Below, one piece after another: positions 4,027-7,452 of a stretch of DNA of 13,159 nucleotides (position 1 is the first letter of the stretch; each line of letters starts with the position of its first letter). Made by a program: the position numbers and the translations under genes. The notes under the pieces were generated by a model. The model was not told the DNA's origin. It saw only the letters and a program-made list of their open reading frames with translations, and searched no databases. This DNA is from Gammaproteobacteria bacterium (GTDB lineage: Bacteria; Pseudomonadota; Gammaproteobacteria; PS1; Pseudothioglobaceae): positions 1 through 13,159 of the forward strand of contig JAJRPY010000045.1 of the NCBI GenBank assembly GCA_024280535.1, written 5' to 3'.

Positions 4027-4830
4027 TTAATTATTAATTGCTGAGGAAATTTGCTTTGCCAAACTCCCAACACTTGCCAACATTTTAGCCTTATCTTGGG
4101 CATATTGCTCAATAAATGCAACCAAAGACGAACCCACAATCACTGCATCGGCATTATTAGACACCAATTTTGCCGTTGCCGCATCTTTAATACCAAAACC
4201 CACGCCAACTGGCAAATCAATATAACGGCGAATCCTACCCAAATGATACGTCACTGAATCAATGTCTAAATGCCCTGCCCCCGTCACCCCTTTTAGCGAC
4301 ACAAAATACACAAAGCCTGAAGCAATAGTGGCTAAAAACTCAATACGCGCATCCGTAGTCGTCGGCGCCACCAAAAAAATAAAATCAACATACTGATTAT
4401 CCAGCGCTTGCTTTAACTCATGCGCCTCCTCTGGCGGCATATCCACCACCAACACCCCATCCACCCCACTATTGCCCGCCGCCTCAGCAAACGCCTGATA
4501 GCCAAACACTTCAATCGGATTCAAATATCCCATCAACACAATAGCAGTCGTATTATTGCCTTGTCGAAATTGTCTAACCAACGCCAACACATCACGTAAA
4601 CTCACCCCAGCTGCCACTGCCCGTTCATGCGATTTGGCAATCACCGGCCCATCCGCCATCGGATCTGAAAACGCCACCCCAAGTTCAATCACATCTGCGC
4701 CATTTTCAACCAACACTTGCATTAACTCAAGGGTATTATCCAACCCGCTATCACCTGCGGTGATAAAGGGGATGAAGGCTTTTTTATTGCCTTTTTTTAA
4801 AGTCTCAAATACTTTTTTTATTCTACTCAT
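4027..4830 (-). CDS. trpA: Tryptophan synthase alpha chain
   Basis: TrpA cleaves indole-3-glycerol phosphate to indole and glyceraldehyde-3-phosphate and passes indole through a tunnel to TrpB. Catalytic E49 and D60 fall at exactly the E. coli positions. The phosphate-binding loops GVGFG and IVGSS are present in the C-terminal half. Length is 267 residues, against 268 in E. coli. The signature reads LGVAFSDPMADGP, with alanine at position 53 where proline is usual. The expected partner trpB does not precede it. Instead the ATG overlaps the stop of a small TOPRIM gene by four bases (ATGA), and no ribosome-binding site is visible, so trpA appears translationally coupled to that gene. Confidence 0.97.
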   Translation of the reverse strand: MSRIKKVFETLKKGNKKAFIPFITAGDSGLDNTLELMQVLVENGADVIELGVAFSDPMADGPVIAKSHERAVAAGVSLRDVLALVRQFRQGNNTTAIVLMGYLNPIEVFGYQAFAEAAGNSGVDGVLVVDMPPEEAHELKQALDNQYVDFIFLVAPTTTDARIEFLATIASGFVYFVSLKGVTGAGHLDIDSVTYHLGRIRRYIDLPVGVGFGIKDAATAKLVSNNADAVIVGSSLVAFIEQYAQDKAKMLASVGSLAKQISSAINN

Positions 4831-5363
4831 TGGAATAAAACCGTTAATTTTTGTTTTAGTTCATCAAAATCTGAATGTTTAAAATCGTATGGCGCTTGTG
4901 GATAAAGCTTTCTATAAATACAAGTTGAAATCTTTTTATTCCTGTTTCTGTCTGTAATATCAAGGCACTGATCAAACTCTTTAAAGCATTGTTTTTTATC
5001 CAGTGTGCCAATAATAAAATCATCAAGATTATTCTTAAAAATATAATAATCAGTTGGGATATTCCAATTTAATCCCTTTGTTAAATTATTTATTGCCTTT
5101 ATACTCTTATCCATGCCACCAATTTTGGCATCATTTTGTTCAAAATCAGCATCAAAAATAAACAAGACTTTTTTGATTGTCTTGCCAATTAATTTAGATT
5201 CTTTAGTATAGCTGTTAGTTTTCAATAATAAACTTTTACCATCTGTTGGGAAAATATATTGACCGTATTCAGGCTTTGATGTTATTTTTCCATTTTCTTT
5301 TAAGTGCTGTAAGATTTTAATAATAAATCTTTTATCATCTTCACCTTCACAAAAAATCCTCAC
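4827..5363 (-). CDS. Small TOPRIM-domain protein (DUF3226-like), partner of the upstream ATPase
   Basis: A 178-residue hypothetical protein with TOPRIM-fold hallmarks. The N terminus reads FCEGEDD (residues 4-10), the EGxxD motif that supplies the metal-binding glutamate (E6). The hydrophobic strand VLFIF then leads into D71-A-D73, the DxD metal site. A later NNLDDF (111-116) and a C-terminal KHSDFDELKQ segment resemble DUF3226 proteins as I remember them. Divalent-metal nuclease activity is inferred, not shown. The start is GTG at 5363 in a GTGA overlap with the ATPase stop, and the TGA overlaps the trpA ATG. The gene is very AT-rich (14/60 GC at 5041-5100, 12/60 at 5281-5340). Alternative: a non-catalytic partner of the ATPase. 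Confidence 0.78.
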   Translation of the reverse strand: MRIFCEGEDDKRFIIKILQHLKENGKITSKPEYGQYIFPTDGKSLLLKTNSYTKESKLIGKTIKKVLFIFDADFEQNDAKIGGMDKSIKAINNLTKGLNWNIPTDYYIFKNNLDDFIIGTLDKKQCFKEFDQCLDITDRNRNKKISTCIYRKLYPQAPYDFKHSDFDELKQKLTVLFQ

Positions 5364-6412
5364 TCCCAGCCCCTAACTTCCATACCATTATCTATCTCAC
5401 TAATAATTTCTTCATAATTTAGGACGACGCTTTCTATTTTTTCATCCACTTTTCCAAGTTCAATCAGGGCAATATCCTCATCAGCCAATTTCTTGGCAAC
5501 TCTAGCATAAGATTCCAAACATTCTTTAGAGTGAGTTGTTGCAAAAACTTGGATATTTTGCTTCTTTGAGATGGTTAAAACTATACCCCACAACTTATCA
5601 AAATTTTTATAATGAATGCCGTTTTCTATTTCATCCAAATAAATGGTTGTATCTTTATGCGACAATAAAACAATAATTATTTTGATAAAGTGCCTTATTC
5701 CATCTCCAAACTCTGACAGATTAATAAATTTTTCACCTGCTCTTTTCAGCATAATCGTATTTTTAATAATATCCAATTCTTGAATATTAAACATCTCTAT
5801 TAATGAATCATTGAGTTGTTTGATTTCGCTATTGATTTTTAAATCATCAATAAGATCATTGAGCTGCTGGCTGTCATTACACATTGAAACAAAAATATAA
5901 TGTTTGAAAGTTGGTAAATGATTTTTTGTATAAATTTCCCCATACCTCTTATGATTTCTAAAATTTACAACATTAACCTCTTCCCGATGCCCCCAATTTC
6001 CCCACGCTTGAGTGCCAAAATGTTCTGAACCTATGAAACTATCATACAAAACTAATTTAAATTTTTCATTCATTGCAATATTGAAGTTATCAGTATTTAT
6101 CTTTGACTCTTCTTTTAACCAGGCTAGAATAAAATCAGATTTTTCTCTATTTTGTTGCACTTCCAACAATAATTTTATTAATTCAAACTCAAACCAAACT
6201 CTATCAATCTTAGCCCCTGTATTTTTATTATAATTGTGTTCTTTAAAAATATTGAACGCACTAGACAGTAAAAAACAAGCCTCCATAAAGGCTGTTTTGC
6301 CGACATTATTTTCGCCAGTAATTAAATTAACCCGCTCAAAACCCTCAGCCTTAAAATTATCAAAGCACTTGAATTTTTCAATTTCTATATTTTTAATAAA
6401 ATGTTCGCTCAT
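5360..6412 (-). CDS. SMC/ABC-like AAA ATPase (AAA_15/AAA_21, OLD-type)
   Basis: A 350-residue soluble ATPase of the kind found in OLD nucleases and many anti-phage systems. It starts with an RecF-like strand (IEIEKFKCF) and Walker A GENNVGKT at residues 33-40. It has an ABC-signature-like SEFGDGIR near 233-240, Walker B TIYLDEIENG near 256-265 (D260, E261) and an H-loop ATTHS ending near 295. About 190 residues separate Walker A from the signature, too short for a long coiled coil, and there is no C-terminal TOPRIM domain; that activity seems to sit in the next gene. I chose the ATG at 6412; a GTG directly before it at 6415 is the alternative. The stop overlaps the TOPRIM gene by four bases, and hemE ends 8 bases upstream of the ATG. 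It is AT-richer than hemE and trpA. Confidence 0.85.
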   Translation of the reverse strand: MSEHFIKNIEIEKFKCFDNFKAEGFERVNLITGENNVGKTAFMEACFLLSSAFNIFKEHNYNKNTGAKIDRVWFEFELIKLLLEVQQNREKSDFILAWLKEESKINTDNFNIAMNEKFKLVLYDSFIGSEHFGTQAWGNWGHREEVNVVNFRNHKRYGEIYTKNHLPTFKHYIFVSMCNDSQQLNDLIDDLKINSEIKQLNDSLIEMFNIQELDIIKNTIMLKRAGEKFINLSEFGDGIRHFIKIIIVLLSHKDTTIYLDEIENGIHYKNFDKLWGIVLTISKKQNIQVFATTHSKECLESYARVAKKLADEDIALIELGKVDEKIESVVLNYEEIISEIDNGMEVRGWE

Positions 6413-6420
6413 CACAACGC

Positions 6421-7452
6421 CTACTTTGCCCCAAATTTGTGCACTGCTTCAACCAAAACTTGCATATTCTCAGGGTCAACATCAGGGGTGATGCCGTGAC
6501 CAAGGTTAAAAATATGCCCTGTATTGCCTTTGAATTGTGCCAATACTTTTTTGACTTCTTGTTCAATGACGGCGGGTGAGGCATACAAAACGGCAGGGTC
6601 AAGATTGCCTTGAATGGCAACTTGGCTGCCAATCTGGCGCTCAACCTCACCCAGCTCAACTGTCCAATCAATGCCAACGCCATCACAGCCTGTATTGGCA
6701 ATTTCATTAAGTTGTTTGCCGCCATTTTTACTAAATAAGGTGATTGGGGTGTTTGGGTGTTGTGCCTTTACTTTTGTAATGATTTTTGCCATATAATCCA
6801 GTGAAAAATCTAGGTAGTTTTGCTTGGATAAAACCCCGCCCCAAGTGTCAAATATCATTACACTATCGGCACCCGATAAGATTTGTTGGTTAAGATAATA
6901 AATCACACTATCGGCTAATTTACTCAATAATAAATGCAGTGCTTTTGGCTCATTAAATAACATCGCCTTTGTTTTGGCGAAGGTTTTACTACTGCCGCCT
7001 TCAATCATATAGGTGGCTAGCGTCCAAGGGCTGCCGCTAAACCCAATCAACGGCACCCGGTTATTAAGTGCTTTTTTAATAGTTGCAACGCCATCAAAAA
7101 CATAGGTTAAATCGTCGTTTAAATTGCTGGGTAGATTTTGGATGTCTTTTAAGTTTTGGATAGGGTGTTTAAATTTTGGCCCTTCGCCCTCTGAAAAATA
7201 CAGCCCCAAACCCATCGCATCAGGAATGGTTAAAATGTCTGAAAATAAAATCGCGGCATCTAAATCAAACCTGTCAATCGGTTGCATGGTTACTTCACAG
7301 GCCAATTCTGGATTTTTACATAGAGATAAAAAATCCCCTGCTTTTTTGCGAGTGGCGCGATATTCTGGCAAATAACGACCTGCTTGGCGCATTACCCAGA
7401 TTGGGGTGCGAGAAACGGGCTTTTTTTGCAGGGCGTTTATATAATCAGACAT
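6421..7452 (-). CDS. hemE: Uroporphyrinogen decarboxylase
   Basis: HemE removes four carboxyl groups from uroporphyrinogen III to give coproporphyrinogen III in cytosolic haem synthesis. Signature 1, [15 protein letters not shown], is at residues 17-31 with substrate-binding R22 and R26. The catalytic aspartate is D72 in LFSDIL. Signature 2, [17 protein letters not shown], covers about 137-153. FDTWGG (201-206) and a conserved NLGHGI near residue 320 complete the active site. Length is 343 residues, a little under the 354 of E. coli. No good Shine-Dalgarno precedes the ATG. A TATAAT lies about 32 bases upstream, after the rpmE terminator, so hemE probably heads the minus-strand transcript that runs on through the ATPase cassette. 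Confidence 0.97.

Follow-up and report, generated by a model that had tools for sequence, protein, structure and literature searches.

Related two-gene systems and the cassette under study

OLD nucleases combine an ABC ATPase with a TOPRIM domain, and the excerpts of the literature drawn on here divide OLD proteins into classes, of which PARIS is the split class 4 (PMC10568477, PMC12796447). In PARIS, AriB is a TOPRIM tRNase that is sequestered by a hexamer of AriA (PMC12409363). The AbiL system of Lactococcus, composed of AbiLi and AbiLii, is also a two-gene ATPase and TOPRIM_OLD design, and AAA plus TOPRIM_OLD pairs have been assayed by toxicity neutralisation (PMC10440598). The same excerpted source reports no hits in a coliphage screen of an AAA pair with another toxin. 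The Fusobacterium AbiLii is described as toxic and as not neutralised by its AbiLi (PMC3985639). The PADLOC candidates of the PDC series are mostly described as lacking experimental validation (PMC12988326). Here, we describe a cassette of this general design in a 13,159-nucleotide stretch of DNA, called the window, from a bacterium of the Pseudothioglobaceae (assembly GCA_024280535.1, contig JAJRPY010000045.1). The cassette is a real and intact ATPase-TOPRIM pair that was probably acquired. It appears to be an additional, split OLD-like member of PADLOC candidate PDC-M38 and may work like AbiL or PARIS.

The host setting appears to be that of the small-genome, largely uncultivated sulfur-oxidising bacteria, and the finding would place a compact split OLD-like pair in this group. 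Near protein hits bear the names uncultured Candidatus Thioglobus, Candidatus Thiodubiliella and Bathymodiolus symbiont, which suggests the SUP05/Thioglobus group. The host's draft genome measures 1.27 Mb and is 83% complete.

The cassette lies flush between two housekeeping genes of the host on the minus strand, in the order hemE, 8 nucleotides, ATPase, TOPRIM protein, trpA. Its features are as follows.

5360..6412, minus: ABC/SMC-type (AAA_21/AAA_15) ATPase, 350 residues, predicted sensor/regulator; nearest PADLOC profiles AbiLi and PDC-M38A
4827..5363, minus: small TOPRIM-type protein (DUF3226/PDC-M38B type), 178 residues, GTG start, predicted metal-dependent nuclease effector
5360..5363, minus: 4-nucleotide overlap of the ATPase stop and the TOPRIM GTG start
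4827..4830, minus: 4-nucleotide ATGA overlap of the TOPRIM stop and the trpA start, the downstream cassette edge
6413..6420, minus: 8-nucleotide gap from the hemE stop codon (6421-6423) to the ATPase ATG, the upstream cassette edge
6421..7452, minus: hemE (uroporphyrinogen decarboxylase), host gene upstream of the insertion
4027..4830, minus: trpA (tryptophan synthase alpha chain), host gene downstream of the insertion

Both open reading frames (ORFs) of the cassette are full length with every motif intact. The ATPase starts at the ATG at 6412, with a further in-frame GTG at 6415, and carries Walker A (GENNVGKT, from residue 33), Walker B (IYLDEIENG, from residue 257) and ATTHS (from residue 291). 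The small protein has EGEDD at residues 6-10 and DAD at residues 71-73, and its acidic residues E6, D10, D71 and D73 are all present. These ORFs and motifs confirm what an initial annotation, made from the window's sequence alone, had read there: an ATPase overlapping by four bases a 178-residue protein with EGxxD and DxD motifs. The overlap may couple the translation of the two genes. The GC content of the cassette is 28-31%, against 37-49% in 500-base segments lying mostly or wholly outside it, which fits acquired DNA.

Family assignment

Judged by profile matches and adjacency rather than by PADLOC's own system rules, the pair falls within PDC-M38, a candidate already catalogued, and its design makes it a sister of AbiL and PARIS. 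In Pfam, the ATPase matches AAA_21 (1.2e-16) and AAA_15 (4.4e-13). Its best PADLOC profile is AbiLi PDLC02336 (4.3e-52, residues 5-347), and PDC-M38A PDLC04611 matches residues 6-347 of 350 at 9.1e-40. The match to AriA (1.5e-21) is ranked after one AbiLi and five PDC-M38A profiles. All 36 aligned family ATPases match both AbiLi and PDC-M38A at 1e-20. The window TOPRIM protein matches PDC-M38B profiles only among those of PADLOC, the best being PDLC04623 with a modest 3.8e-5. In Pfam, it reaches 26.8 bits for DUF3226, just under the curated cut-off of 27, as against 16.6 bits for DUF4435 (cut-off 27) and 15.1 bits for Toprim (cut-off 23.1). By E-value, and not by this cut-off, 53 of 56 family members including the window protein match DUF3226 at 0.01 or better. 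At the same threshold, one PDC-M38B profile is matched by 53 of the 56 partners, mad4 of the MADS system by 8 and AriB, weakly, by 2. Weak matches to AbiLii were also found among the 56, to PDLC02337 in 8 (best 3.1e-4) and to PDLC02338 in 7 (best 3.8e-5).

The initial annotation is thus supported in part. Its split OLD-like ATPase and TOPRIM pair was borne out by the two ORFs and their profile matches, and its preference for DUF3226 over DUF4435 holds by score. It knew of no functional description of the pairing, but to call the pairing unnamed would be too strong, since PADLOC lists PDC-M38A and PDC-M38B, the ATPase is nearest to AbiLi, and AAA plus TOPRIM_OLD pairs of other bacteria have already been tested as toxin-antitoxin systems, as excerpts of PMC10440598 record. 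A search of openly licensed papers, supplements being outside it, returned none naming 'PDC-M38' or 'DUF3226'.

Compared with PDC-M38, the window has an ATPase of the PDC-M38A type and a partner of the PDC-M38B type encoded by adjacent genes on the same strand, though the partner's match covers residues 4-104 only. AbiL provides the single best ATPase profile and shares the two-gene design, but AbiLii is described as RloB-like (excerpts of PMC10440598), whereas the window partner is DUF3226-like. PARIS also separates an ABC ATPase from a TOPRIM effector; unlike PARIS, the window partner has no AriB match among PADLOC profiles, its DUF4435 score is below the cut-off, and the ATPase is nearer to AbiLi than to AriA. 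The window partner also gave no AbiLii match even at E <= 10, a threshold at which HMMER filters drop most very weak matches. Failing both the AbiLii and the AriB tests, the pair is neither AbiL nor PARIS itself.

Other systems are more distant. OLD nucleases, Gabija GajA and retron-associated OLD proteins share the ABC ATPase and TOPRIM combination; OLD classes 1-3 have one fused chain where the window has two separate ones, and no helicase or reverse transcriptase was found among the neighbours identified in the window, in contrast to Gabija and retrons. The MADS protein mad3 matches the window ATPase weakly (3.4e-9), far more weakly than AbiLi or PDC-M38. PtuA of Septu and retrons is accompanied by an HNH-type PtuB (excerpts of PMC12409363 and PMC10440598), whereas the window partner is of the TOPRIM type.

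Predicted fold and ATPase variability

Proteins of the TOPRIM superfamily have an alternating beta/alpha fold with a glutamate after strand 1 and a DxD motif after the third core strand. In the predicted structure of the small protein, E6 stands directly after strand 2-5, while strand 66-71 has D71 as its last residue and is followed by D73, in line with this motif rule. The predicted fold is compatible with TOPRIM and appears to resemble the C-terminal region of an OLD protein; the annotation's concern that the small protein might fold otherwise did not come true. PtuA heads from Septu and retrons match the window ATPase equally well. Chains of AriB, GajA and AbiLii are not among the 50 matches listed for the two proteins, which is no evidence against them, and searching solved structures by sequence yielded no useful match. 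Across the ATPases, mean pairwise identity is 0.78 for residues 26-50 and 0.75 for residues 276-300; the 25-residue bins covering residues 51-250, which lie between the Walker motifs, have only 0.34-0.54.

Conservation of the pair

Species genomes were scanned with the ATPase alignment, which gave at least 464 relatives among 588 stretches; the best 80 loci, designated L, were examined. These loci span Campylobacterota, Gammaproteobacteria, Cyanobacteria, Chloroflexota, Bacteroidota and others. They contain 88 plus-strand ATPase ORFs scoring above 40 bits. A TOPRIM ORF adjoins 82 of the 88 when partners in pieces are counted; a close-homologue profile suffices for 35 of them, and the other 47 are found only with an iterated profile partly trained on them. 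At least one pair is present in 75 of the 80 loci. With the Pfam matches of the ATPase, this adjacency goes beyond coincidence. Two of the remaining ATPase ORFs end at a contig edge, and four have no partner. One of these four, in L016, is followed by an ORF that begins TOPRIM-like and then runs into LptE-like sequence, and another, in L032, is only the first portion of an ATPase that is split in two, the second portion having a TOPRIM partner. The last two (L018:7911-9023 and L042:7956-9047) have no recognisable TOPRIM gene downstream despite ample flanks. Among 81 partner ORFs, E6 is kept in all, D10 in 72 (with 7 E, 1 A and 1 gap), D71 in 75 (6 gaps) and D73 in 71 (2 N, 2 E and 6 gaps). The active-site residues are conserved across loci of several phyla. 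The conserved pairing, the largely intact acidic residues and the variable genomic locations expected by the initial annotation are all found in these relatives, and in the loci examined the ATPase homologues do not occur mostly alone, as it had allowed they might.

Distribution and the hemE-trpA interval

Among the window's relatives, the cassette is rare and patchy. The TOPRIM gene was found in 4 of 95 genomes, namely its own, G051, G043 and, as a 119-residue match containing stops, G038, and in none of 11 same-genus genomes. The ATPase is present in 4 of 83 family genomes (its own, G352, G051 and G043) and in 2 of 274 genomes of the class sample (its own and G091). Beyond cellular genomes, three viral-contig stretches matched a pattern, none encoding a relative, and distant ATPase matches at 25% occur in 2 phage records. 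Plasmids gave 147 records with distant ATPase matches and no TOPRIM match; most of the matches listed span a third of the query at 34.7% identity. The listed plasmids are small (~3.8-4.2 kb) and nearly all from Klebsiella, with the 34.7% identity covering residues 232-347.

A trpA match is present in 80 of the 83 family genomes, and the loci of the 30 best were examined. The interval was called empty when the last aligned residue of hemE lay at most 25 nucleotides from the trpA start. It is empty in 20 loci (8 of them same-genus), holds this cassette in 2, holds other sequence in 7 and meets a contig edge in 1. The two cassette loci are the window itself and that of G051, where the contig begins within the ATPase gene. 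A further copy adjoins trpA in G352, which is not one of the 30.

The order hemE, ATPase-type ORF of 454-479 residues, trpA occurs in six of the seven loci with other sequence (G014, G043, G022, G031, G351 and G059) and also in G047. The ORF of G351 (L135) is a truncated ATPase of 223 residues beside ORFs that resemble a transposase by eye, and G059 has two extra ORFs between hemE and the ATPase. G014 and G059 each have a called ORF of 171-172 residues between this other type of ATPase and trpA, open frames are also present at this position in G043 and G022, and a similar 169-residue frame occurs in G035, the seventh locus, where the contig ends. The G014 pair, the only one scanned, matches PADLOC candidate HEC-02 (A, 5.5e-33; B, 3.3e-4). 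G352 has both kinds, in the order hemE, a broken ATPase of the 454-479-residue kind, a 172-residue ORF, the PDC-M38-like cassette, trpA. The hemE-trpA interval is therefore a recurrent one for two kinds of candidate defence pair, and this reuse is the best contextual support for a role in defence. The junction also comes in three natural allelic states, namely empty, HEC-02-like and PDC-M38-like. The cassette of G043 itself lies elsewhere, 8 nucleotides after a putative gatA named from reading of the sequence. Coordinates of the other ATPase pair at hemE-trpA are L131:6907-8770 (HEC-02-like) and L136:6649-8509, with a broken ATPase copy at L130:3627-5491.

A repeat scan of the cassette edges gave no convincing mobile-element signature. 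A target duplication (ATGAG at both ends) was considered and dropped, as cassette-free trpA starts read ATGTC in most rows shown. Promoter-like sites number 16, within the background expectation (13.0, standard deviation 3.6), and the window contains no Rfam family at gathering score and no tRNA.

Insertion sites in other relatives

A second type of interval recurs among the 80 loci. In 13 of them, the cassette touches a hisH-like gene upstream, a hisA-like gene downstream, or both.

hisH-hisA-type loci: L007, L008, L012, L013, L014, L017, L025, L026, L027, L028, L030, L031, L039

These neighbours were recognised as homologues of the L026 genes, which alone were scanned; the upstream gene is a class-I glutamine amidotransferase and the downstream gene matches His_biosynth, so that hisH and hisA are their probable names. 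In an order sample of 248 genomes, 16 have the ATPase at 1e-30, and in at least 5 of the 16 (G354, G357, G440, G564 and G581) it lies 0.5-0.7 kb upstream of a hisA-like gene. In L013 (8001-11737), pairs stand before and after a 235-residue gene in the hisA position, which suggests two neighbouring insertion points in one operon.

Flush embedding in operons was rejected as a general property. With a rough ORF caller and a same-strand gap of at most 30 nucleotides, 26 loci were sorted as Campylobacterota and set against the other loci. Such gaps are present at 16/23 downstream and 10/24 upstream edges in Campylobacterota (background pairs 117/220), and at 10/44 downstream and 8/49 upstream edges in the others (background 88/420). 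There is no enrichment over background, and only particular intervals are notable.

Proposed function and alternatives

The genes, their motifs and predicted folds, the pairing, the patchiness and the interval shared with other ATPase inserts come from direct analysis. The cassette is probably of the PDC-M38 type, acquired into hemE-trpA, with a restrained TOPRIM effector that acts in defence. By analogy with described systems, abortive infection is its likeliest action, and complex formation, sensing and nuclease activity may proceed as follows. The SMC/Rad50/PtuA-like ATPase would oligomerise and would bind and restrain the TOPRIM protein. The variable stretch that separates Walker A from Walker B would be the main reader of a phage-made signal, after which an ATP-driven rearrangement would set the TOPRIM nuclease free or switch it on. 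This enzyme would cut an essential nucleic acid, and the infection would abort. The substrate is somewhat more likely to be RNA, whether tRNA or other, than DNA.

In the nearest alternative, the pair is not an RNA-cutting abortive system but an OLD-type nuclease that acts on DNA, either restricting it directly or processing it. It differs from the reading above only in the substrate, and the likelihoods given here overlap for that reason. This version is rather unlikely, as the split partner AriB cuts tRNA through an RNase M5-like site (excerpts of PMC12409363), PtuA heads match the ATPase equally well, and the patchy distribution disfavours a core repair role. Less likely again is a chromosomal toxin-antitoxin module with no phage trigger, whose ATPase only neutralises a TOPRIM toxin and which stabilises itself in an essential operon. 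The neutralisation assays of AAA and TOPRIM_OLD pairs (excerpts of PMC10440598) speak for such a module, as do the overlap of the TOPRIM stop with the trpA start and the relatives within biosynthetic operons of the hisH-hisA type. However, the variability between Walker A and Walker B is more in keeping with a sensor than with a plain antitoxin, a HEC-02-like pair occupies hemE-trpA in G014, defence systems supply the best profiles, and most sampled relatives do without the pair. It is very improbable that the cassette is a silent passenger, an acquired remnant with no current activity. The GC content of 28-31% and the lack of a copy in all 11 same-genus genomes would fit a passenger, and broken copies do exist: the stops in G038, a partner in pieces in L034, a partner match only over a short ORF in L049 and the split ATPase of L032. 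The window's own ORFs are nevertheless full length with intact motifs, and the active-site residues are conserved in several phyla.

Tandem arrays

Several loci have more than one ATPase-TOPRIM pair: two each in L007, L013 and L031, and four in L010. The genome of L010 (G356) has 21 matching stretches, some being parts of one gene, and its pairs stand head to tail in three regions, with four in L138, three plus one apart in L139, and four in L140, which appears to be L010's own contig. Over 15 pairwise comparisons within arrays, ATPase identity is 80-100% from the N-terminal end to Walker A, drops to 21-48% in the middle and rises again to 43-62% in the C-terminal part. Blocks of ~120-220 nucleotides repeat at ATPase 5' ends and others near Walker B. 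In L007, L013 and L031 the 5'-end blocks are 123-138 nucleotides long with 89-92% identity, and longer shared blocks reach 352 nucleotides (93%) and 901 nucleotides (85%).

At the DNA level (ungapped), L139 units 2 and 3 share 99% of positions around the start through Walker A (third positions 98%) and 30% just after; for L138 units 3 and 4 the figures are 98% (third positions 95%) and then 58%. In these two pairs of neighbouring units, the pattern points to recent recombination or to duplication accompanied by exchange; for the other array pairs it is suggestive of it. Two points complicate this view. Third-position identity in the 5' block is 0.63-0.84 for the remaining 13 within-array pairs, which is near the mean of 0.67 between arrays; their similarity may thus be older, or it may come from selection on the protein. 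Assembly error in the array drafts may also account for the pattern.

Taken jointly, the arrays and intervals allow a tentative reading, which we consider possible rather than probable. The family would be a recombining repertoire of head-to-tail pairs, in which homology at the 5' end (~120-220 nucleotides, through Walker A) and at Walker B swaps the sensor segment together with its attached effector, with seamless insertion at fixed operon intervals (the hisH-hisA type and hemE-trpA). The window would be a single-unit version. If the arrays are a shuffled sensor repertoire, the stretch from Walker A to Walker B would give a direct handle on what these ATPases sense, and such a handle would matter for AbiL- and PARIS-like systems generally. 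The arrays and the recurrent intervals are the part that most deserves specialist attention.

A strong HEC-02A match (2.3e-78) is present at L139:4022-5640, ~1.9 kb upstream of the ATPase-TOPRIM array, with a 170-residue partner that matches PDC-M29B weakly.

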